DNA of 64,000 bases from Streptomyces sp. NBC_00376 (GTDB lineage Bacteria; Actinomycetota; Actinomycetes; Streptomycetales; Streptomycetaceae), in NCBI RefSeq assembly GCF_036077095.1, contig NZ_CP107960.1:1860001-1924000 (forward strand), written 5' to 3'. Below the pieces are notes generated by a model. That model was not told where the DNA came from. It was given only the letters and a program-made list of their open reading frames with translations, and ran no database searches. Position numbers and translations under genes: made by a program. Each line of letters opens with the position of its first letter. Position 1 is the first letter of the stretch. Positions 47,293-58,093 of the stretch are shown here, in pieces.

Positions 47293-47709
47293 ATGCGAGA
47301 CCACGTACGGATCGTCTGCCGGGCAGCGGCGGTAGCCATCGCGTTGGTGGCAGCGGGAGGATCTTTCGCCGTCCCGGCGGTCGCCGCGCCGGCCGGGATC
47401 ACGCAGGCCGCGGCGGCGCCGGCGCCGACCGGTCTGGCGTACAGCTATGACCCGGCCACCGAGCTGGTGACCGTCAGCTGGGATCCGAAGGATCCGGGCG
47501 ACACCGTGACGACCGGCTATCGCGAGGGAGGTTGCAGCGGACCCTCGACCGCCGACGGGCCGTGCTTCGTACGGGCCTCGGGGCCGCTGCTGACCGGCAG
47601 CTCGTTCACGTTCCGCCTGGTCGCGGGCCGGACGTTCTACTTCCGGGTCTACGCCGAGAACGCGGCGCACCAGCAGACCGGATCGGCGATCCTCACCGTC
47701 ACCACCTGA
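47293..47709 (+). CDS. Secreted fibronectin III-like protein
   Basis: This 138-residue protein has a Sec signal (VRIVCRAAAVAIALVAAGGS, cut after VAA or AQA) and one beta-sandwich domain: PTGLAYSYDPATELVTVSWD, then GGCSGPSTADGPCFVRASGP with a likely disulfide pair and GRTFYFRVYAENAAHQQTGS. GGAGG precedes the ATG. It probably acts outside the cell by binding; the ligand is unknown. Confidence 0.82.
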   Translation: MRDHVRIVCRAAAVAIALVAAGGSFAVPAVAAPAGITQAAAAPAPTGLAYSYDPATELVTVSWDPKDPGDTVTTGYREGGCSGPSTADGPCFVRASGPLLTGSSFTFRLVAGRTFYFRVYAENAAHQQTGSAILTVTT

Positions 47710-47774
47710 GGCGGGCCGGCATACGGCCGGACGGCCGGACGTGACTTGACCGGCTGATCACCGTGGCACGGTTC

Positions 47775-47786
47775 TAGGATTGCGGA
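47775..47786 (+). promoter_or_regulatory. Probable leaderless promoter of the aldo/keto reductase
   Basis: TAGGAT (47775-47780) is followed by six bases and then the ATG at 47787, the spacing of a leaderless transcript. There is no ribosome site. Confidence 0.5.
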
Positions 47787-48656
47787 ATGCCTTCCATGCC
47801 ACAGCCACTCGACGATACGTTCCTGCTCGGCGGCGAGGTGCCCGTACGCCGGCTCGGCTACGGCACCGCTCAGCTGACCGGCCCCGGGTACTGGGGGCCG
47901 CGCGGCGAGCGGGAGGATGCCGTGGCCGTGTTGCGGGCGGCCGTCGAGCAGGGGGTCACGCTCGTCGACACCGCCGACAACTACGGGCCGGGGCTGGCCG
48001 AGGAGCTCGTCGCCGAGGCGCTCCATCCGTACCGCGACGAGCTGGTGATCGCGACCAAGGGCGGTGTGGTGCGCACGAGCGACGACGCCTGGCACGTCGC
48101 GGGGCGTCCGGAGGAGTTGCGGGCGATGTGCGAGGCCAGTCTGCGACGGCTGCGCACCGACCGGATCGACCTCTACCAGCTGCACCGGCTCGACCCGGAA
48201 ATACCGATGGCCGACCAGCTGGGCACCCTGGATGCGCTGAGGCAGGAAGGTAAGATCCGGTACATCGGTCTGGACACCCTTACCGCCGACCAGCTGGAGC
48301 AGGCCCTCTCCCTGACCGGGATCGCCTCGGTGCAGAACCGGTTCAATCTCCTCGACCGTTCGTCGGACGCGGTACTGAGGGTGTGCGAGGCCCACGGCCT
48401 GGCCTTTCTGCCCTGGTTCCCGCTGGCCAACGGCGCTCTGACCGGCGACTCGGCCGCAGCGCTCGCCGCGATCGCCGATCGGCACGGTGCCACCCGCGGG
48501 CAGATCGCCCTCGCCTGGCTGCTGCACCGGTCCCCCGTGCTGTGCCCGACTCCGGGCACCGGTTCCACCGTCCATCTGGCGGAGAACCTGGGGGCCCGGG
48601 AGATCCGGCTGTCCGCCGAGGACCTGAGCAGCCTGGAGGCGCTCGCACCCGCATGA
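47787..48656 (+). CDS. Aldo/keto reductase
   Basis: This 289-residue NADPH-dependent oxidoreductase has GYGTAQLTGPGYWGPRGERE, VTLVDTADNYG with catalytic Asp and Tyr, IATKGGV with catalytic Lys, LYQLHRLDP with the catalytic His, and RFNLLDRSSDAVL. The substrate is unknown. Its stop overlaps a possible ATG start of the next ABC ATPase gene. Confidence 0.9.
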   Translation: MPSMPQPLDDTFLLGGEVPVRRLGYGTAQLTGPGYWGPRGEREDAVAVLRAAVEQGVTLVDTADNYGPGLAEELVAEALHPYRDELVIATKGGVVRTSDDAWHVAGRPEELRAMCEASLRRLRTDRIDLYQLHRLDPEIPMADQLGTLDALRQEGKIRYIGLDTLTADQLEQALSLTGIASVQNRFNLLDRSSDAVLRVCEAHGLAFLPWFPLANGALTGDSAAALAAIADRHGATRGQIALAWLLHRSPVLCPTPGTGSTVHLAENLGAREIRLSAEDLSSLEALAPA

Positions 48657-48670
48657 AGGAGTACCCGAAC

Positions 48671-49561
48671 GTGACCGCACCTCGTTCCACCGCGCCCCGT
48701 ACCACCACCGGCAGTACTGCCACCGGCCCTGTCGTCGCCGGTGTTCCCGCCCCGGCCGCTGCTCCCGCCGTCCCGGTGATCCGGGCCGTCGGTGTCTCGC
48801 TCGTACGGGAGGGCAAGACCCTGCTCGACTCGGTCTCGCTGACTGTACGGAGCGGTGAGCACTGGGCGCTGCTCGGTGCCAACGGTGCCGGGAAGAGCAC
48901 ACTGCTGGGGCTGCTCGGCGCGGTCGGTCACCCCACCCGGGGGTCGGTGGAGGTGCTGGGACGCACCCTCGGCCGGGTCGATCTGCGGGAGCTGCGGTCG
49001 CTGCTCGGGCATGTCAATCCGCGTCATCCGCTGCGTTCCCCGCTCTCGGTGCACGAGGTGGTGCTGACCGGTCTGACCAACTCGGTCGAGCCGGTGCCGC
49101 GCCGGTCGGTGAGCCAGGAGCAGCGGGAGCAGGCGGAGCGGCTGCTGAAGATGCTGGGCATGGGCGGCAAGTCGGGTTCGCGCTGGCCTGCGCTGTCGCA
49201 GGGTGAGCGGGGCCGTACGCTCATCGCCCGCGCACTGATGCCGCAGCCGCGGCTCCTGCTGCTCGACGAGCCGGCCACCGGTCTGGATCTTGCCGCGCGT
49301 GAGCAGTTGCTCGACAGTCTGGACGTGCTGCGCGAGGAGCATCCGGAGCTGGCGACGGTCCTGGTCACCCATCACCTGGAGGAGCTGCCCGCGTCCACCA
49401 CGCATGCGCTGCTGCTGCGGGGCGGCCGGTGTCTGGCCTCGGGTCCGGCGGACGAGGTACTGACCACGGACCGGGTCAGCGACTGTTTCGGCCATCCGGT
49501 GGAGATCTCCCGCACGGACGGCCGGTGGGCGGCGCGGGCGCAGCGCTTCGTCCGGTCCTAG
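48671..49561 (+). CDS. Stand-alone ABC ATPase (ModF/YlmA-like)
   Basis: This 296-residue ATPase has a variable Thr/Ala-rich N-terminus (about 1-40) and one NBD: Walker A GANGAGKSTLLGLLGAVGHP, GHVNPRHPLRSPLSVHEVVL, signature LSQGERGRTLIARALMPQPR, Walker B LLLLDEPATGLDLAA, VTHHLEELPAST. There is no permease nearby. The GTG at 48671 follows GAAGGAG; an ATG at 48653 overlapping the previous stop is an alternative. The transported substrate, if any, is unknown. Confidence 0.85.
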   Translation: MTAPRSTAPRTTTGSTATGPVVAGVPAPAAAPAVPVIRAVGVSLVREGKTLLDSVSLTVRSGEHWALLGANGAGKSTLLGLLGAVGHPTRGSVEVLGRTLGRVDLRELRSLLGHVNPRHPLRSPLSVHEVVLTGLTNSVEPVPRRSVSQEQREQAERLLKMLGMGGKSGSRWPALSQGERGRTLIARALMPQPRLLLLDEPATGLDLAAREQLLDSLDVLREEHPELATVLVTHHLEELPASTTHALLLRGGRCLASGPADEVLTTDRVSDCFGHPVEISRTDGRWAARAQRFVRS

Positions 49562-49968
49562 GGCGTGCCCCCGTCGGGGCCGCCGGTGTCCGCGGTGTTC
49601 GCGGTGTCGCCGAAGGGGGTCGCCTGGTGGAAATAGAGCGCCCAGCCCTCTTCGGCCCGCCGCCACACCGAGCTGCGGTGGGCGAGGTGTCCCTTCGTCT
49701 CGGTGTCGTAGGTGAGGTGGACGAGGTCGTGGGCGAGCTGGATCCCGCTCATCCGGGACGCGGTCATCTGGCCGGGGCGCGGTGCGTCCGACGCGGTGAG
49801 CGAGGCGATCATGGTGTCGCGGTCCCAGACCCGGCCGGACGAGTCGATCTCGCGGTAGTCCGGGTGCAACACCTGGGAGAGGAGTTCGGCGGAGGCGCGC
49901 ACGGCCGGGTCCAGGAGGCGCAGCTCGCCCTCGACCGCAGCGGCCACGCCGGGTGACGGTTCGGTCAT
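49558..49968 (-). CDS. NTF2-like (SnoaL/DUF4440) family protein
   Basis: This 136-residue cone-fold protein reads AVEGELRLLDPAVRASAELL, LHPDYREIDSSGRVWDRDTM, then RSSVWRRAEEGWALYFHQAT. It resembles calcium/calmodulin kinase II association-type NTF2 domains. Its ATG overlaps the DUF1697 stop by four bases, and its stop overlaps the convergent ATPase stop. No active site is apparent. Confidence 0.8.
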   Translation of the reverse strand: MTEPSPGVAAAVEGELRLLDPAVRASAELLSQVLHPDYREIDSSGRVWDRDTMIASLTASDAPRPGQMTASRMSGIQLAHDLVHLTYDTETKGHLAHRSSVWRRAEEGWALYFHQATPFGDTANTADTGGPDGGTP

Positions 49969-50555
49969 GCCGGGGCTCCGTCGGGTACGGGTCCGGCGTG
50001 AGCCGTCTTTGGCGGTGCGGTCATCCGCACCAGCTTTTCCACGGTGTTCCAGTTGCGCGAGGTGGCGACGAGACCCTTGGTGACGGAGGTGCGGGACAGC
50101 GCGTCGGCGAGCTTCGAGCGGCCCAGCCCGTCGGGGGCGTAGAGGTAGAGCGCGCGGTCGCCGAGACCGAATGCCTCGGGGAGGTAGGCCGCCGCGTCGA
50201 TCCCGGCGAAGCGGTCGGCGTCGACCGGCTGGTCGTAGTACGTGATGTGGAGCTGCTTGCCTTCGAGTTCGGCGGCCGGGAACGGGCAGGCCGCCGCAAC
50301 TGCCGCCAGGTAGGCGCCGTCCCTGACCAGGCAGGGGACGGGAAAACCGAACCGCTTCTCGATCGCCTGCTCCAGTTCGGCGGCGAGGGCGTTCTCGTCG
50401 TCCGACGCGCTGCTGAAGACGGCGTTGCCGCTCTGCAGATGGGTGCGGACGTCGCCGTGTCCCAGTTCGGTGAGCAGTGTGCGGAGTTCGGCCATCGGGA
50501 CCCTCTTGTGGCCGCTCACATTGATCCCGCGCAACAGCGCCGCGTACATCGTCAT
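49965..50555 (-). CDS. DUF1697-family protein
   Basis: This 196-residue protein starts MTMYAALLRGINVSGHKRVP MAEL and continues THLQSGNAVFSSASDDENAL and ATSRNWNTVEKLVRM, the DUF1697 signature. The start at 50555 is backed by the family; TATGGT six bases before it would give a leaderless mRNA. Function is unknown. Confidence 0.88.
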   Translation of the reverse strand: MTMYAALLRGINVSGHKRVPMAELRTLLTELGHGDVRTHLQSGNAVFSSASDDENALAAELEQAIEKRFGFPVPCLVRDGAYLAAVAAACPFPAAELEGKQLHITYYDQPVDADRFAGIDAAAYLPEAFGLGDRALYLYAPDGLGRSKLADALSRTSVTKGLVATSRNWNTVEKLVRMTAPPKTAHAGPVPDGAPA

Positions 50556-50588
50556 GGGCACACCATAGGACGATCTCTTCACACGGAG

Positions 50589-50625
50589 CGGCCGCCGCGC
50601 CCCGTGGGGGAGGGCGCGGCGGCCG
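50589..50625 (-). terminator. Terminator hairpin after the subtilisin-like gene
   Basis: CGGCCGCCGCGCCC (50589-50602) and its exact complement (50612-50625) lie 52 bases beyond the protease stop. Confidence 0.8.
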
Positions 50626-50676
50626 CCGATTCCGTTGTGCCGGGCATCCTTCGCCCGGTCACGGCTGCGGGGTCGG

Positions 50677-51879
50677 TTACTCGACGACCTTGAGCAGCTT
50701 GTTGGGGGTGCCCTCGGTCGCGTTGGAGATCGCGTCGGGGGTGGCTCCGTCGGTCAGCGCGGTGGCGACCTCCTCCGGAGTGGCGTCCGGGTGGCCGGCG
50801 AGGTAGACGGCGGCGGCGCCGACTACGTGCGGGGTCGCCATGGACGTACCGGAGATGGTGTTGGAGGCGTCGTCGCTGTCGTTCCAGGACGAGGTGATGT
50901 CCGAGCCCGGGGCGTAGATGTCCACGATCGAGCCGTAGTTGGAGAAGGACGACTGCTCGTCGTCCACCGTGGACGAGGCGACCGTGATGGCCTCGGGGAC
51001 GCGGGCCGGGGAGCTCTCGCTCGCGTCGGAGGACTCGTTTCCGGCGGCCACCGCGAAGGTGACGCCGGAGGCGATGGCCTTCTGGACCGCGGCGTCGAGC
51101 GCCTCGTCCGCGCCGCCGCCGAGGCTCATGTTGGCGACGGAGGGACCCTCGTGGTTCTCGGTGACCCAGTCGATACCGGCGACGACCTGCTCGGTGGTGC
51201 CCGAGCCGGAGTCGTCGAGCACCCGGACGGCGACGATCTTGGCCTTCTTGGCCACGCCGTAGGTCGCACCGGCGATGGTGCCCGCCACGTGGGTGCCGTG
51301 GCCGTTGCCGTCGTCGGCGCTGTCGTCGTTGTCCACGGCGTCGTAGCCCGAGCTGGCCCGGCCCTCGAACTCGTTGTGCGTGGTGCGGACCCCTGTGTCG
51401 ATGACGTACGCGGTGACACCCTCGCCCGCGCTGTCCGGGTAGGTGTACGCGTCGTCGCCGGCCGTCTCGGTCTGGTCGATCCGGTCCAGGCCCCAGGACG
51501 GCGGGTTGTCCTGGGTCTCGTCGATGTGGAACTTCTTGTTCTGGACGACCTTGGAGACGGCCGGGTCAGCCGCCAGGCGCTTGGCCTCGGTGAGCGAAAG
51601 GCCGCTGGCGGAGAAGCCGTTGATGGCGGAGCTGTAGTTGCGCTTCAGCTTGCCGCCGTACTCCTTGGCGAGCTCCGCCTTGTCGGCCTTCTCGTTCAGC
51701 ATGACGATGTAGCTGCCCGAGACGGCGTTCGCCGCATCGGCGCCGTAGACGACGCCCATCGCGGGAGCGGGGGTGGCGCCGGCGAGCGAGGTGTTGAGCA
51801 GGGTGACTCCGGCGGCCGCGGCCACCGCGGTTATCGCCGCGGTCAGCTTGAACCGGCGTGCGCGCTTGTGAATTGCCAT
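50677..51879 (-). CDS. Secreted subtilisin-like serine protease (S8)
   Basis: This 400-residue preproprotease has a signal (FKLTAAITAVAAAAGVTLLN, cut after AGA), an I9 propeptide (about 55-125: SYIVMLNEKADKAELAKEYG, INGFSASGLSLTEAKRL), and a catalytic domain with Asp in AYVIDTGVRTTHNEF, His in GNGHGTHVAGTIAG and Ser in SGTSMATPHVVGAAA. The oxyanion Asn is in VAAGNESSDASE. There is no C-terminal anchor or P domain. It is expected to work outside the cell. The ATG at 51879 has GAGGAG upstream. Confidence 0.93.
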   Translation of the reverse strand: MAIHKRARRFKLTAAITAVAAAAGVTLLNTSLAGATPAPAMGVVYGADAANAVSGSYIVMLNEKADKAELAKEYGGKLKRNYSSAINGFSASGLSLTEAKRLAADPAVSKVVQNKKFHIDETQDNPPSWGLDRIDQTETAGDDAYTYPDSAGEGVTAYVIDTGVRTTHNEFEGRASSGYDAVDNDDSADDGNGHGTHVAGTIAGATYGVAKKAKIVAVRVLDDSGSGTTEQVVAGIDWVTENHEGPSVANMSLGGGADEALDAAVQKAIASGVTFAVAAGNESSDASESSPARVPEAITVASSTVDDEQSSFSNYGSIVDIYAPGSDITSSWNDSDDASNTISGTSMATPHVVGAAAVYLAGHPDATPEEVATALTDGATPDAISNATEGTPNKLLKVVE

Positions 51880-52128
51880 GAAGAGGGGTCTCCTCGTCAT
51901 TCTTTGTGGGGGGATTGACCCTCGGCCGGAAGATCTCCGGGGGTTGGCTCGAAACCCTCGCCGATTGACGCGCCCAGATCAAGACCTTCATGCGGCTGTG
52001 ACTTACTCAACAAGGTTTCGTAATAAAAAACCGGCCAGCCGCGCCCAAGTCGGGCACCCGTGCCACAACATCCCCCGCAGGCACCGGGGTTACTGCCCGA
52101 CCGGCACACTTCGCAGGCGGGAAGACGG
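51880..52128. other. Promoter region of the subtilisin-like gene
   Basis: No gene is supportable. An AT-rich patch at about 51995-52035, including TTTCGTAATAAAAAA on the + strand, stands out and may hold the protease promoter. Confidence 0.35.
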
Positions 52129-52158
52129 GCCCCGTCCGGCCGCCCGGCCGGACGGGGC
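52129..52158 (-). terminator. Terminator hairpin after the P450 gene
   Basis: GCCCCGTCCGGCC (52129-52141) and its exact complement (52146-52158) surround a four-base loop, 80 bases beyond the P450 stop. Confidence 0.75.
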
Positions 52159-52238
52159 GGCGGCCGGATTCCACCCCCGTGTTCACAGAGCCCTCACGCG
52201 GTCACCAAATTGAGGTCGGGGACGGTCGGGCCGTCGCG

Positions 52239-53282
52239 TCAGGGGCGGACGACCCGGACGTCGGCGACCCCCATCAGTCCGGCGAGCGGCACCTTCGCCG
52301 CGGTCTGCTCCGGACTCACCGTCAGGCCGTCGCCGCGCAGCATGTCGAGCAGCATCTCGGCGAGCGGCATCACCATGTGCCGGCCCCAACAACGTTCGGA
52401 GGCATGGCCGAAGGGGAGGTAGCCGGGCTGGTCGTCGGGGTCGAGCCTGTCCCAGCGCTCGGGGCGGAACTCGTCCGGGTCCTCCCAGAGCGCGGGGTCG
52501 CGATGGCTCAGCAGCGGCAGGAGCAGGATGTCGTCGGTCGCGCCGATCCGGGAGTCGAGGGCCGGATACTCCGGTGACGCCCTGCGCAGGATGTTCCAGG
52601 AGGGCGGCAGCAGCCGCATGGCCTCGTACAGGATGTTGTGGTTCGAGGTGTCGTCGTCGAAGGGCGAGCCGAGCCAGAGCGCGTTGGCGACGAGCGTCGA
52701 GACGGTGAAGCAGACCGGGGCCGCCGCCCGCCGGTAGAGCCCCATCGCGTAGCGGCGGTCGCTGTAGTTCGCCGCTTCGGCGGTCAGGCCCGCGATGGCG
52801 GAGACGGGTGCGCCGGGGCGGAGCCTGCCGGGCAGCGCGGCCCCGGCCGCGATGACCGTCCAGGTGAGCTTGGGCGTCAGCTCCAGAGCGCGGTCCATGA
52901 GGATGCGCAGCCGGTACGGGTCGCCTTCGAGGACCAGATCGCGCAGGAACACATGGCCGACGTGCGGCCATTCACCGGACAGGTCGACCGCCTTGACGGG
53001 CTTCTTCAGCGCCGTCCGGACGTCCCGGCCGATGGCCTGCATGACCGTGGACGCCTCGGTGCGCGGGATGGACCGTCCGTGCAGCGGCTTGAACGTGGGA
53101 CGCTCGACCTCGGTGGCCGGCCTGGCGGCGAGGATCCGGTCCGTCAGTTCGGCCCCGGCGACACCGACGGTGCCGGGGTCGAGACGGAAGACTTCCTCGC
53201 CCCGGTGGTCTCGCAGGAGCGCCTGGAGTCTCGGCGCGAAGACGACGTCCCGGGCACGGCTGCCGGTACCGGACATGTACAT
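52239..53282 (-). CDS. Cytochrome P450 of an atropopeptide-type RiPP locus
   Basis: This 347-residue P450 is short for the family (about 400). The ExxR of helix K is YEAMR (Glu 220, Arg 223), the PERF-like block is EFRPERW (271-277) and the heme Cys lies in FGHASERCWG (291-300, Cys 298). Two normally fixed positions of that loop differ: Ala 294 for Gly and Glu 296 for Arg or His. The usual I-helix acid-Thr pair is not seen; the likely region is APVCFTVST (188-196). GGAGA sits six bases before the ATG. It lies 114 bases downstream of a precursor peptide ending AWYHWY and is inferred to cross-link its aromatic residues. Confidence 0.88.
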   Translation of the reverse strand: MYMSGTGSRARDVVFAPRLQALLRDHRGEEVFRLDPGTVGVAGAELTDRILAARPATEVERPTFKPLHGRSIPRTEASTVMQAIGRDVRTALKKPVKAVDLSGEWPHVGHVFLRDLVLEGDPYRLRILMDRALELTPKLTWTVIAAGAALPGRLRPGAPVSAIAGLTAEAANYSDRRYAMGLYRRAAAPVCFTVSTLVANALWLGSPFDDDTSNHNILYEAMRLLPPSWNILRRASPEYPALDSRIGATDDILLLPLLSHRDPALWEDPDEFRPERWDRLDPDDQPGYLPFGHASERCWGRHMVMPLAEMLLDMLRGDGLTVSPEQTAAKVPLAGLMGVADVRVVRP

Positions 53283-53396
53283 CGGTGGTCTCCAAGAAGC
53301 GGGAAGGGCCCGCGCCCGGCGGGCCGATGAGGCCTGGCCGGACACGGGCCCGAATCGACTGACCGTGTCCCTCGAAACGACGGACCGTCTGTCGGC

Positions 53397-53477
53397 CTAG
53401 TACCAGTGGTACCAGGCGTACGCCTTCAGGCTCTTCTCCGGCGTCATCTTGTCCTTGAGCAAGAAAAGGAACTTCAT
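53397..53477 (-). CDS. Atropopeptide-type RiPP precursor (core AWYHWY)
   Basis: The ATG at 53477 has GGAGG eight bases upstream, one of the best ribosome sites in the window. It opens a 26-residue peptide: leader MKFLFLLKDKMTPEKSLKAY, then AWYHWY and a TAG stop. Tryptorubin A, the founding atropopeptide, is built from Ala-Trp-Tyr-Ile-Trp-Tyr; this core differs only by His for Ile at position 4. Five of the six core residues carry rings that a P450 could join. The P450 gene follows in the same direction. No protease, transporter or other tailoring gene is adjacent, which matches the minimal two-gene locus known for the family. Confidence 0.88.
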   Translation of the reverse strand: MKFLFLLKDKMTPEKSLKAYAWYHWY

Positions 53478-53549
53478 AACAGCACCTCCATCTTTTACTC
53501 TGAATTTGCATTCCGGCGTGCATGGATTGAGCCGTTCGCGGCACCAACC
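53478..53549 (-). promoter_or_regulatory. Leader region of the RiPP precursor
   Basis: An AT-rich patch (CCATCTTTTACTCTGAATTT on the + strand, 53488-53507) lies just upstream of the precursor ribosome site and probably contains its promoter -10. No consensus can be fixed. Confidence 0.35.
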
Positions 53550-53566
53550 CCCGACCCAGGGTCGGG
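53550..53566. promoter_or_regulatory. Perfect palindrome upstream of the RiPP precursor
   Basis: CCCGACCC-A-GGGTCGGG, 73 bases before the precursor start. It is a candidate operator. The rest of 53567-53955 is AT-richer than average, with no gene I can support. Confidence 0.45.
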
Positions 53567-53955
53567 AATTCAGAGCCGCTCACCGCCGAAAGGAGTGAAG
53601 CCCAGCAGGAAAGGAATTGTCAATGACTTCTTTTTAAGGAAAGCGGAGGGGCATTCAGCTTTCTACAACCCTTCGAGGAGTGCGGGGGCTCCGGGATTAG
53701 ACACCGTGTCACCAGGAAGGACGTGGGATCCATACCGGCACGGACGCCCGGACACAAGAGCCCGAAGAGGCTGATTCACGCCATTGAATGTCTGAATCGC
53801 CGACATTGAAGAATGCGAGGAATCGAGGCCGGTATCCGCGTGCGATTTCCCGGATACTTTCGGTTACCCGCCGAAAGAAACGTACCGGTCGGTAATGGGC
53901 GGGTCGATCGGGGCGGACACTGCTTGGCCCATGAAACTGAACCCGCGGGCACCGC

Positions 53956-54008
53956 GAAGCCCTCCCCGCCGGCGCCCATGTACGTGCGGGCTCGGCGCGG
54001 AGGGCTTC
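53956..54008 (-). terminator. Terminator hairpin after the sugar-binding protein gene
   Basis: GAAGCCCTCCCCGCCG (53956-53971) pairs with CGGCGCGGAGGGCTTC (53993-54008) with one mismatch, ending nine bases beyond the stop codon of the binding-protein gene. Confidence 0.7.
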
Positions 54009-54016
54009 GGGTTTCC

Positions 54017-55315
54017 TCAGCGCTGGTAGCGGGCCAGGACCCGGTTGCCGTCGTCCACCAGACGCTTCCTCAGCTCGTCCGCCCCGATGGCCCCGCTGTA
54101 GTACTCCTGAAGGGCCGGTGTGGCGACCTTGTCCTTCCACTCCGGGTAGCCGCGCACCGACTGGGCGGGCGCCGGCCGCAGTGCCTTCGCGACGGCCGCA
54201 CCGGTCACCCAGCCGTTCTCGGCGGTGTGCAGGGACGGGTCGGCGAGGGCCGCGGTGCCGGTCGGGAGCATCCAGTCGCCCTTGGCCAGCCGCACCATGT
54301 TCGGCGGCCGCAGCAGGAAGTCGATGAACTGCGCGGCCTCCTTCTTGTGCGGGCTCGCCTCCGAGACGGACAGGGTCTGCGGACTCACCCCCTGGGCGAG
54401 GCCCGCACTGCCCGCGGGAGCCGGCAGGACCGTCCACTCGAAGCCCTCGGGTGCCTGTTCGACGACCTGCTGGCGGTACGAGAAGCCCAGCGGAACCATC
54501 GCGTACTTGCCGCCGAAGAACCCGGGAAGGGTGTCGGAGCCGCCCATGCCGAGTGCGGTGCGCGCGGCACTGCGGTCGGTGTTGACCTGGTCGTGGATGG
54601 TGCCGGGGACGATCCGGTCGCCCTCCCCCACGCGGATGGTGACCTTGCCGTCGGCACCGCGGTGGAAGAGCTGACCGCCGCCGGAGAGCCCGAGGTTCAG
54701 CGTGACGGAGACCGGTTCCTTCAGCGGCCAGGCGATGCCGTACCGCCCCTTGACCGTCAGTTCCTCGGTGACCTGCCGGAACTCGGACCAGCTCCAGGGG
54801 TGTTCGGGGGTCGGGATGCGGACCCCCGACTCCGCGAGGATCTTGGTGTTGGCGATCAGGACGCGGGGCTCCTGGAGGAACGGCACTCCGTAGACGCCGT
54901 CCCCGAAGGTGGTGGTGGACCAGCTCTGCTGCGGGATGTCGGCGGTCAGCCTGCCGGGAAGGAGCCCACGCAGGTCCGCGAGGTAGCCGCTGTAGGCGAA
55001 GTCGGCCAGGTCGTCGGAGGCGTCGTGGATGATGTCCGGTGCCTCGTCGCCCTCGAAGGAGGTGAGCAGCTGGTCGTGGACGGTGTCCCAGCTGCCCTGG
55101 ACGTAGCTGACGTGCATGTCCGGATGGGCCTCGTTCCACTCCTTCACCAGCTGCTTGTTGGCGTCGACGGACTCCTTCTGCCAGGCCAGCGACTGGAAGC
55201 TGAGCTCGATCCGCCCGCCGGTGTCCCGGCCGTCGTCCGTCCCGGCGCAGCCGGTGAGCAGCAGGGCCAGTGCGGTGGCCGCCGCGGCGGCCGTCCTGCG
55301 CAGCGATGCCCGCAT
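54017..55315 (-). CDS. Sugar ABC transporter substrate-binding lipoprotein
   Basis: This 432-residue family 1 binding protein has a lipoprotein signal (RRTAAAAATALALLLTGCAG; lipobox LTGC). The body reads SYVQGSWDTVHDQLLTSFEG, DIIHDASDDLADFAYSGYLA and NTKILAESGVRIPTPEHPWS W, the maltose/trehalose-type fold. The ATG shares one base with the permease stop (TGATG). It is unusual that the binding protein gene is last in the operon. The substrate is probably an oligosaccharide. Confidence 0.88.
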   Translation of the reverse strand: MRASLRRTAAAAATALALLLTGCAGTDDGRDTGGRIELSFQSLAWQKESVDANKQLVKEWNEAHPDMHVSYVQGSWDTVHDQLLTSFEGDEAPDIIHDASDDLADFAYSGYLADLRGLLPGRLTADIPQQSWSTTTFGDGVYGVPFLQEPRVLIANTKILAESGVRIPTPEHPWSWSEFRQVTEELTVKGRYGIAWPLKEPVSVTLNLGLSGGGQLFHRGADGKVTIRVGEGDRIVPGTIHDQVNTDRSAARTALGMGGSDTLPGFFGGKYAMVPLGFSYRQQVVEQAPEGFEWTVLPAPAGSAGLAQGVSPQTLSVSEASPHKKEAAQFIDFLLRPPNMVRLAKGDWMLPTGTAALADPSLHTAENGWVTGAAVAKALRPAPAQSVRGYPEWKDKVATPALQEYYSGAIGADELRKRLVDDGNRVLARYQR

Positions 55316-56154
55316 CAGCTCTTCACCGCCCCGGCCAGCATGCCGCCCGTGATCCGCCGCTGGATGACCGCGAAGATGACCAGCGAGGGCAGGGTGGCGA
55401 GGAACGCGGCGGCGGCGAGCGGCCCGAGATCGGCCGCGCCCTCCGCACCGATGAAGTGGGTCAGTACGACCGGCAAGGTCTGCTTCTCCGGTGTCTTGAG
55501 CAGGACGAGCGCGAAGAAGAGCTCGTTCCACGCGGTGATGAAGGCGAAGAGCGCGGTGGCGACGATGCCGGGGGCCAGCAGCGGGGCGGTGACCGAGACG
55601 AGCGTCCGCAGCCGGCCCGCTCCGTCGACCGAGGCGGCCTCCTCCAGCTCGGCGGGCACGGCCCGTACGTATCCGACCAGCATCCAGAGCGCGAAGGGCA
55701 GCGCCCAGACGACGTACACCATGATCAGCCCCCACAGGGTGTTGATCAGATGGAGGTTCTTCAGGATCAGGAAGAGCGGGATGATCAGCAGGACGAGCGG
55801 GAACGCCTGGCTGATCACGACCCAGCCGGTGGCCACCGTCGAGAGCCTGGAGCGGCGGCGGGCCATCACGTACGCCATGGGCGTGGCGACGAGGACCGCG
55901 ATGAAGGCGGCGCAGAGAGCGGCGATCAGCGAGTTGGCGGCGGCCTGCAGCAGCGGCTGTTCGTCGAACGCCGTGCGGAAGTTGTCGAGCGTCGGGTTCT
56001 CCGGGATCCAGGTGGGATGCAGGGAGCCCAGCTCGCGGGCCGGTTTGAAGGCGGTGGAGACCAGCCACAGGAACGGGAACGCCAGGAAGACGAGGTAGCC
56101 GAGGAGTGCGGCGTACTGTCCGGCGCGTGCGGCTCTTCCGGTGCGCATGCTCAT
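55315..56154 (-). CDS. Sugar ABC transporter permease (MalG type)
   Basis: This 279-residue permease has about six membrane segments and the EAA loop ELEEAASVDGAGRLRTLVSV TAPLLAPG. The start MSMRTGRAARAGQYAALLGY at 56154 overlaps the upstream permease by four bases (ATGA). It pairs with the MalF-type subunit. Confidence 0.9.
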   Translation of the reverse strand: MSMRTGRAARAGQYAALLGYLVFLAFPFLWLVSTAFKPARELGSLHPTWIPENPTLDNFRTAFDEQPLLQAAANSLIAALCAAFIAVLVATPMAYVMARRRSRLSTVATGWVVISQAFPLVLLIIPLFLILKNLHLINTLWGLIMVYVVWALPFALWMLVGYVRAVPAELEEAASVDGAGRLRTLVSVTAPLLAPGIVATALFAFITAWNELFFALVLLKTPEKQTLPVVLTHFIGAEGAADLGPLAAAAFLATLPSLVIFAVIQRRITGGMLAGAVKS

Positions 56155-57101
56155 CGGTCCCCGCCTCCTCTGAGCCGGCCGGCGAGATACACGGCGAGGA
56201 TCACGGAGATCACCGCGACCATCACACAGCCCATCGCCGCCGCGTACCCGAACTGTCCGTAGTGGAAGGCCTCTTCGTACGCGAAGAGCATCGGCAGCCG
56301 GGTGCGGCCGCCGGGTCCGCCGTTGGTCAGTACGTAGACCAGGGCGAAGGAGTTGAAGTTCCAGATGAAGTTGAGCGCGGTGATGGAGAGCGCGACGGGC
56401 CGGAGCACCGGCCAGGTGACGGTACGGAAGCGGCGCCAGGCACCGGCGCCGTCCAGGGCGGCGGCCTCGTGGAGTTCGTGCGGGGTGTTCTGCAGCCCCG
56501 CGAGCAGGGCCACGGTGGTCTGGGGCATGCCGGACCAGATCCCCACCACGATCACGGCGGGCAGGGCGGTGGCGAGTCCGGTGAGCCAGTCCCTGCCGTC
56601 GCCGAGGCCGAGGTCGCGGATGGTCTCGTTGAGGATGCCCGCGTCCGGGTTGTAGACGAGCCGCCACATGAGGCCCACCACCACCTCGGGCATCGCCCAC
56701 GGAATGATCGCCAGGGCCCGTGCCAGCCAGCGCAGCCGCAGGTTCTGGTTGAGCAGCAGGGCGAGGCCGAGGGCCAGTACGAACTGCGGGACGGTGACAC
56801 CGAACGCCCAGACCAGGCCGATCCGGAACGAGTCCCAGAAGAGGGTGTCGTGGAGCAGGTCCTGGAAGTTCAGTCCGCCCACCCACTGGGTGGAGCGGGT
56901 ACGGCCGGACTGGGCGTCGGTGAAGGCCAGCGCTATGCCGTAGAGCAGGGGGCCGACGCTCAGGACCAGGATCGGGATCAGCGCGGGCAGCACCAGGAAC
57001 CAGGTACCGGCGCTCCGGTTGACCGGCCGGAACCGTCTGTCCTGCGGGCTGCCGGGCGGACCATGTCTCTCGGAACGTACGGTTGCACTCGCTAATGTCA
57101 C
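56151..57101 (-). CDS. Sugar ABC transporter permease (MalF type)
   Basis: This 316-residue permease opens the operon. It has about six membrane segments and the EAA loop ELHEAAALDGAGAWRRFRTV TWPVLRPV. The GTG at 57101 has AAGGGGG seven bases upstream and is preferred over an ATG 21 bases earlier that lacks a ribosome site. No ATPase gene is present; Streptomyces often uses the shared MsiK ATPase encoded elsewhere. Confidence 0.9.
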   Translation of the reverse strand: MTLASATVRSERHGPPGSPQDRRFRPVNRSAGTWFLVLPALIPILVLSVGPLLYGIALAFTDAQSGRTRSTQWVGGLNFQDLLHDTLFWDSFRIGLVWAFGVTVPQFVLALGLALLLNQNLRLRWLARALAIIPWAMPEVVVGLMWRLVYNPDAGILNETIRDLGLGDGRDWLTGLATALPAVIVVGIWSGMPQTTVALLAGLQNTPHELHEAAALDGAGAWRRFRTVTWPVLRPVALSITALNFIWNFNSFALVYVLTNGGPGGRTRLPMLFAYEEAFHYGQFGYAAAMGCVMVAVISVILAVYLAGRLRGGGDR

Positions 57102-57226
57102 GAATCCGCCCCCTTGCGTCATTCGATCGGATTCACACCGTTCTGGCCGCTCAGGTGGCCTCCGTCATCGTGCTGACGGTCCGTCGGTTCGTCAAGCAGG
57201 CCTGCACTGATGCGAAAATCGGAGTC

Positions 57227-58093
57227 ATGAACGAGATGCGTGCGCGTGAGGTGCTGACCGCTGCCGGGCTGTCCGGCGGTGCGGAGCTGCTCGCGATGGG
57301 TGAGAACGCGGTGTTCGCCGTCGGCGACCTGGTGGTCAAGGTCGGCCGGGACGCCGTGCGCCACCCGGAACTGCGGGAACGGGCAGAACGCGAGGTGGCC
57401 GTCGCCCGGTGGCTGGCCGCCTCGGACGTGCCTGCCGTACGGGCCGCGGAGCCCGCGGCGCGCCTGGTCGAGGGGCACCCCGTGACCCTCTGGCACCGGC
57501 TGCCCGATGCCGTACGCCCCCCGGAGCCGCGGGATCTGGCGCCGCTGCTCACCCTGGTGCACGCGCTGCCCGCCCCGGAGGGTCTCGCCCTCCCGCGCCG
57601 CGAAGTGCTGGGCGGGGTCGAACGCTGGCTGCGGCTCGCGGGCGATGCGATCGATCCGGCCGACGCCGGCTATCTGCGGGAGCGCCGCGACGGCTTCGCG
57701 GCGGCCGCCGCCGCTCTGGTCCCCCATCTGCCGCCGGGGCCGATCCATGGCGACGCGCTGCCCCGTAACGTCCATGTCGGTCCGGACGGTCCGGTGCTGG
57801 TCGATCTGGAGACCTTCTCCGCGGATCTGCGCGAGCACGATCTGGTGGTGCTGGCGCTGTCCCGGGACCGGTACGGCCTGGCGCCCGAGGCGTACGACGC
57901 CTTCACCGCCGCGTACGGCTGGGACGTCCGTGAGTGGGAGGGCTGCGCGGTGCTCCGCGGGGCCCGGGAGACGGCCAGCTGTGCGTGGGTGTCCCAGCAC
58001 GCGCCGGCCAATCCGAAGGCGCTCGCGGAATTCCGCCGCCGGGTGGCCTCACTGCGCGACGGCGACACGGCGGTGCGGTGGTATCCGTTCTGA
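57227..58093 (+). CDS. Aminoglycoside phosphotransferase (APH)-family protein
   Basis: This 288-residue kinase-like protein has the N-lobe GENAVFAVGDLVVKVGRDAV with the ATP-binding Lys, the Brenner motif PIHGDALPRNVHV (catalytic Asp and Asn) and LVDLETFSADLREHDLVVLA, where the metal Asp sits. Homoserine or choline kinase-like roles are equally possible; there is no sign of real antibiotic resistance. The ATG at 57227 lies very near GGAG, and the ATG at 57236 is better spaced from it. It is divergent from the sugar transporter. Confidence 0.82.
   Translation: MNEMRAREVLTAAGLSGGAELLAMGENAVFAVGDLVVKVGRDAVRHPELRERAEREVAVARWLAASDVPAVRAAEPAARLVEGHPVTLWHRLPDAVRPPEPRDLAPLLTLVHALPAPEGLALPRREVLGGVERWLRLAGDAIDPADAGYLRERRDGFAAAAAALVPHLPPGPIHGDALPRNVHVGPDGPVLVDLETFSADLREHDLVVLALSRDRYGLAPEAYDAFTAAYGWDVREWEGCAVLRGARETASCAWVSQHAPANPKALAEFRRRVASLRDGDTAVRWYPF

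Follow-up and report, generated by a model that had tools for sequence, protein, structure and literature searches.

More than 650 atropopeptide loci have already been found (PMC11450843). The leader of the precursor peptide recruits a cytochrome P450, which alone installs the links; on the basis of a model, the KSLK motif of the leader has been proposed to feed the core into the pocket of the enzyme, and release of the peptide is believed to be due to proteases encoded outside the unit (PMC11450843, PMC12352619). The core of LauA is WYIWY (PMC12352619). Varsorubin B1 contains one C-C bond, between two Trp, and two C-N bonds, one from Trp to Tyr and the other from Trp to the backbone, and laurentirubin B carries an additional ether introduced by a second P450 (PMC11450843). 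The link pattern varies within the family, from the monocyclic scabrirubin to the two patterns that arise from one sva enzyme (PMC11450843). Two P450s with only 59% identity gave the same product, amyxirubin B (PMC11450843). Other atropopeptides have been produced with Streptomyces albus J1074 as host, and the supplement of that paper lists 685 precursors (PMC11450843).

We analysed a stretch of 64,000 nucleotides from Streptomyces sp. NBC_00376 (the window), in which a short precursor gene is followed on the minus strand by a P450 gene. The sequence makes it very likely that the locus gives rise to a cross-linked peptide of the tryptorubin (atropopeptide) family. The sequence features by which such loci are recognized in PMC11450843 are present: a characteristic P450 adjoins the precursor, the precursor frame falls within 10-40 aa and ends in two consecutive aromatics and a stop (26 aa, AWYHWY-stop), its leader has KSLK rather than one of the listed variants, and the conserved Trp stands at core position 2.

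The window P450 shares 61% identity with its counterpart in a Streptomyces varsoviensis locus (L076; contig NZ_JOBF01000044.1, 9531-10574). Because contig and coordinates agree, this is the published varsorubin locus sva, which has been expressed heterologously (NZ_JOBF01000044.1, 9365-10577; PMC11450843). The sva precursor, MKLVHLVNKFRSEKSLKAYSWYQWL, is of the same build as that of the window, but its core is SWYQWL, with Gln at position 4 and Leu at position 6. The P450 is 64% identical to that of a locus in Amycolatopsis xylanica (L069), which shares the leader end KSLKAY but has the core AWYIWW. The amyxirubins come from A. xylanica (PMC11450843), and we infer that L069 is the amyxirubin locus of that paper. 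The comparison with published loci and every testable sequence feature bear out the original prediction, which had placed the locus in the atropopeptide family.

With the tryptorubin A and B loci (try/trp; lauA-lauB1) the window locus has in common a precursor with a dedicated P450, a KSLK leader and a core of the AWYxWY type, but it has His at core position 4 where those loci have Ile. We take the core of tryptorubin A to be AWYIWY. The lau locus has a second P450, whereas the ten frames tested on the two sides of the window locus (47649-58093) include no P450 and so give no hint of an additional one here. The biarylitides are also similar, in that a P450 (P450Blt) links the aromatics of a ribosomal peptide, Tyr-His included (PMC12352619), but their precursor has five amino acids (PMC13417212, PMC12352619). 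Membership of the window locus in the biarylitides was rejected on this point, since its precursor is not of five residues but of 26, with a KSLK leader.

The precursor gene and its P450

The precursor gene runs on the minus strand from an ATG at 53477 to a TAG at 53397 (81 bases, 26 codons) and encodes MKFLFLLKDKMTPEKSLKAYAWYHWY, followed by the stop. The peptide matches the NCBIfam model NF038372 ("tryptorubin family RiPP precursor", tryptorubin_fam) over positions 1-26 of 26 with 59.5 bits (E 2.7e-16), the curated cut-off being 33 bits, and this is the single match in its own genome of 10.04 Mb. At E 0.001 the model matches 44 of the 392 genus genomes, 42 of them above the cut-off, and it matched none of 14 control genomes. 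The original prediction had remarked that automatic gene callers may miss a gene this short; a dedicated NCBI model for such precursor genes exists in NF038372. An identical precursor protein is encoded in L001, L002 and L092, in each of which GGAGG also precedes the gene, and the L092 gene differs by three synonymous bases only.

The P450 gene has its ATG at 53282, 114 bases from the precursor stop, with GGAG seven bases 5' of the ATG, and ends at 52239; a second ATG lies two codons into the frame. Both genes, their coordinates and strand, and the GGAGG site are thus confirmed as originally described. The protein has the marks of a cytochrome P450, with a score of 47.6 bits against Pfam PF00067 (cut-off 22.8) over residues 217-305 only, a haem-ligand Cys, and an ExxR motif that reads EAMR. 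Cys298, Glu220 and Arg223 are each kept in at least 94 of 95 P450s. A PDB sequence search with the P450 gave no match at 1e-10; at 0.1, 258 sequences match, and among the 60 listed only the C-terminal haem part is covered. The closest relative is Streptomyces sp. ADI95-17, with a P450 97% identical and the same neighbours.

Table 1. Features of the locus, in positions of the window
Feature	Position	Strand	Basis
Variable segment with the two-gene unit; flanks common to relatives without the unit	52058..53988		DNA comparison with relatives
Atropopeptide-modifying cytochrome P450, 347 aa	52239..53282	-	Haem-ligand Cys298 in FGHASERCWG; ExxR at 220-223
Atropopeptide precursor gene, 26 aa: leader MKFLFLLKDKMTPEKSLKAY, core AWYHWY, stop	53397..53477	-	NF038372 match
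Core-coding part, AWYHWY	53400..53417	-	Sequence
His-4 codon CAC of the core	53406-53408	-	Sequence
KSLK motif of the leader, residues 15-18 (17-20 by the numbering of PMC11450843)	53424..53435	-	Sequence; motif described in PMC11450843
GGAGG ribosome-binding site of the precursor gene, seven bases 5' of the ATG	53485..53489	-	Sequence

A search by P450 similarity alone gave 115 stretches in GTDB species genomes, and we retained the best 80 of them. Exactly one short, KSLK-like frame with a W..W/Y ending was found in each of these 80 loci (best 80 of 115), counting frames on the P450 strand from 700 bases upstream to 60 bases inside the P450 match; the short frame is therefore kept beside the P450 in relatives, as the original prediction implied. 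A stricter motif pattern found the frame in 79 of the 80 (best 80 of 115) and missed L026. The near-twin of L026 on the tree, L106, reads KNLK, a variant missing from the motif list in the text of PMC11450843. In the reverse direction, a P450 lay within the 3-kb locus in all 30 of the precursor matches that were fetched (30 of 45, the window's own included).

In L106 (1498-1578, minus strand) KNLK replaces KSLK while the AWYIWY core is intact. The genome of the genus sample to which L106 and L144 belong (G358) has two precursors, AWYIWY and AWYGWI, 1.8 Mb apart. The P450 frame extracted from L021 (Xanthomonas cucurbitae) stops after 105 aa, and the locus match spans residues 1-346.

The chromosomal site

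In the window the two genes lie among genes for a DUF1697 protein (49965-50582), a subtilisin-like protease (50680-51900), a solute-binding protein (54017-56068) and a permease (56151-57122). All four lie near the P450 in L001-L003, whereas L004 has three of them there. At E 1e-15, none of the four was found in the other 76 loci (best 80 of 115), several of which are short contigs. The precursor-P450 pair is therefore kept in related genomes while the surrounding DNA changes, a point that the original prediction had raised. A further frame on the plus strand (57083-58093) matches Pfam APH (phosphotransferase family) with 66 bits and is unrelated to the unit.

The protease occurs, at E 1e-150 or better, in 180 of the 392 genus genomes. 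The precursor lies at most about 1.6 kb from it in at least five genomes (G000, G075, G166, G179, G313) and elsewhere in other genomes with both genes, a comparison that leaves out G064, G175, G348 and G390, where both are also present. The best ten of the 180 with no precursor beside the protease (L124-L133; protease 88-93% identical) were compared with the window at the DNA level; in two, G019 and G149, a precursor lies at another place in the genome. In nine of the ten, similarity is lost at 52020-52057 and returns at 53989-54017, except for one 38-base match inside the unit in L128.

The space between the break points is filled differently from relative to relative. Just 70 bases are found there in L126. 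An MMPL-like transporter occupies the site in L124 by Pfam, with similar frames seen by eye in L125, L128, L129 and L131, and a glycosyltransferase occupies it in L133 by Pfam, with similar frames by eye in L130 and L132. L127 has a broken piece of an atropopeptide P450 (5406-5739) that matches window positions 52217-52467 and 52640-52726. Since relatives have the site either empty or otherwise filled, the unit is bounded to two genes, and small modules come and go at the site between the protease and solute-binding-protein genes. The P450 remnant in L127 adjoins a partial permease match, and a solute-binding-protein gene was not found within 8 kb in L127.

Recurrence of the AWYHWY core

The original prediction regarded AWYHWY as a new core, which does not hold: it recurs in other Streptomyces, at 7 of the 80 P450-selected loci (best 80 of 115) and at 6 of the 45 precursor matches from the 392 genus genomes, the window's own included (5 of 30 and 1 of 15), two sets that overlap through identical P450s. 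Uniqueness of the core was thus rejected. The loci with AWYHWY are L001, L002, L005, L007, L016, L057, L080, G179 (L092) and G247 (L136), and the P450s of the first eight are 97% to 68% identical to that of the window. The remaining cores of the best 80 of 115 are AWYIWY (22), AWYLWY (20), AWYFWY (12), AWYGWI (7), SWYIWY (3), VWYLWY (2) and seven others found once each. Across loci, position 4 is taken by I, L, F, H, G, A, V or Q. The His codon is CAC in 13 of 13 counted. The sisters L003 and L004, with P450s 85-87% identical, have Leu (CTC) at position 4, one base from CAC. In L057 the AWYHWY core stands behind a clearly different leader end (...IREAIFGARSFKRV; ARSFKRV). At position 4, the other cores paired with the P450 clade of L057 have Phe, Ile or Val.

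The P450 tree was built from 95 of the 111 extracted P450s, with L016 and L021 left out and 14 identical copies merged. On this 95-row tree AWYHWY requires five changes, four of them forced by well-supported branches. A single AWYHWY clade was rejected by the AU test (p 5.8e-05), which set nine His rows, the truncated L016 (299 aa) included, against 76 others on a quick tree from which 11 GWI/GWV/SWYQWL rows had been dropped for speed. The His label is clustered, with six changes against a shuffled mean of 8.7 and only 2 of 500 shuffles as low, and the residue is therefore inherited and not noise. From the tree changes together with this clustering it follows that AWYHWY is inherited within small groups, yet has been gained or lost on more than one occasion.

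Six of the papers searched contain the string WYHWY, none of them on RiPPs as judged by title and abstract. The main texts of two atropopeptide papers (figures and supplementary precursor lists aside) lack the string, and no description of a natural product of AWYHWY was found in them. AWYHWY may well be listed in print, because several such strains stand in RefSeq-style records.

Predicted product and the place of His-4

The locus is a real but ordinary member of its family. From the sequence and by analogy, we consider it highly probable that this is a minimal two-gene atropopeptide locus whose P450 joins the aromatics of AWYHWY in the tryptorubin manner, with His-4 likely a spacer. How the links form, in what order, and what His does are here read across from the published relatives. 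The 26-aa precursor would be translated, and its KSLK leader would dock on the neighbouring P450. The P450 would join the aromatic side chains of AWYHWY, beginning with a link from Trp-2 to Trp-5, to which links from Trp-2 to Tyr-3 and from Trp-5 to the backbone would probably be added, like those of tryptorubin B and varsorubin B1. Proteases encoded outside the unit would remove the leader and often Ala-1 too. His-4 would most likely be tolerated between the linked aromatics while itself remaining unlinked.

Since linking differs from one family member to another, assigning the tryptorubin type to the window P450 is a guess. The product could instead be a simpler, scabrirubin-like monocycle of WYHW or WYHWY with one Trp-Trp link (minus 2H), which seems unlikely but deserves some weight: published monocycles come from TWFIWYS and as the second sva product (PMC11450843), and ScaB forms them from many precursors (PMC12352619), whereas in the one published AWYxWY-type case that we considered in which the precursor was paired with its cognate P450, lauA and lauB1, the product is the polycyclic tryptorubin B (PMC11450843, PMC12352619). 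We would be surprised if there were no product at all, through a locus that is silent or decayed or a short frame that is untranslated. The P450 remnant at the same site in L127 does mean that such units decay, but both window frames are intact, and the precursor protein and GGAGG are the same in L001, L002 and L092. The subtilisin-like protease, directly downstream of the P450 on the same strand, might be taken for a member of the unit that removes the leader. This has very little probability in view of its presence in 180 of the 392 genus genomes (E 1e-150), only 44 of which have a precursor match, and it is near the P450 only in L001-L004 (best 80 of 115), along with the other chromosomal neighbours. 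On its genus distribution and its absence near other P450 loci, the protease was rejected as a unit member.

A cross-link at His-4 is possible but unsupported. The P450s of this clade might link His-4 to Trp or Tyr through an extra C-N or C-C bond, a link new to atropopeptides, and the recurrent His might mark a shared function. P450Blt demonstrates that Tyr-His links can be made by such enzymes (PMC12352619), and His cores, which are scattered over several parts of the P450 tree, cluster more than shuffled labels do. Both the link and the shared function are nevertheless highly improbable, given the range of residues tolerated at position 4 and the pairing of the sister P450s L003 and L004 with Leu there; ScaB, moreover, accepts His at the position 4 equivalent and yields nothing cyclic when His takes the place of a linking residue (PMC12352619). 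No P450 column separates His from other cores (8 His against 87 other rows). With kinship ignored, the best-separating columns are 29, 310, 248, 163 and 96, the best being Glu29, which is present in 7 of the 8 His rows as against 9 of the 87 other rows.

According to the text of PMC12352619, ScaA variants at positions 24 and 25 nearly all gave cyclic tetrapeptides with ScaB; I25H is among the variants made, I25R is the named exception, and position 25 is the one that corresponds to core position 4. His at ring-forming positions (W26H, W23H, Y26H, W22H, Y25H) gave no cyclic product, and a test of natural precursors yielded a WPHWY product, in which His likewise precedes the second Trp, with a link between residues one and four by MS/MS (PMC12352619). 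In the structures described in the text of PMC11450843, links fall on the two Trp, on Tyr residues and on the backbone, and never on the position 4 side chain. These structures, the ScaB variants and WPHWY make a spacer the best reading of His-4, although ScaB is a different P450 and its handling of His need not hold for that of the window.

The locus is a clean, minimal atropopeptide unit with a basic, polar residue inside the predicted cross-linked ring, and is otherwise what one would expect in a family for which over 650 loci are on record (PMC11450843). The window P450 and its sisters L003 and L004, with Leu-4, offer a ready-made comparison to show if position 4 matters to the P450 and if His alters the link pattern. 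The computed [M+H]+ values expected for the product are 921.3678 for the hexapeptide minus 4H, 850.3307 for WYHWY minus 4H and 689.2831 for monocyclic WYHW minus 2H. The same arithmetic applied to WYIWY gives 828.3715 for minus 2H (published 828.3718) and 824.3402 for minus 6H (published 824.3401).
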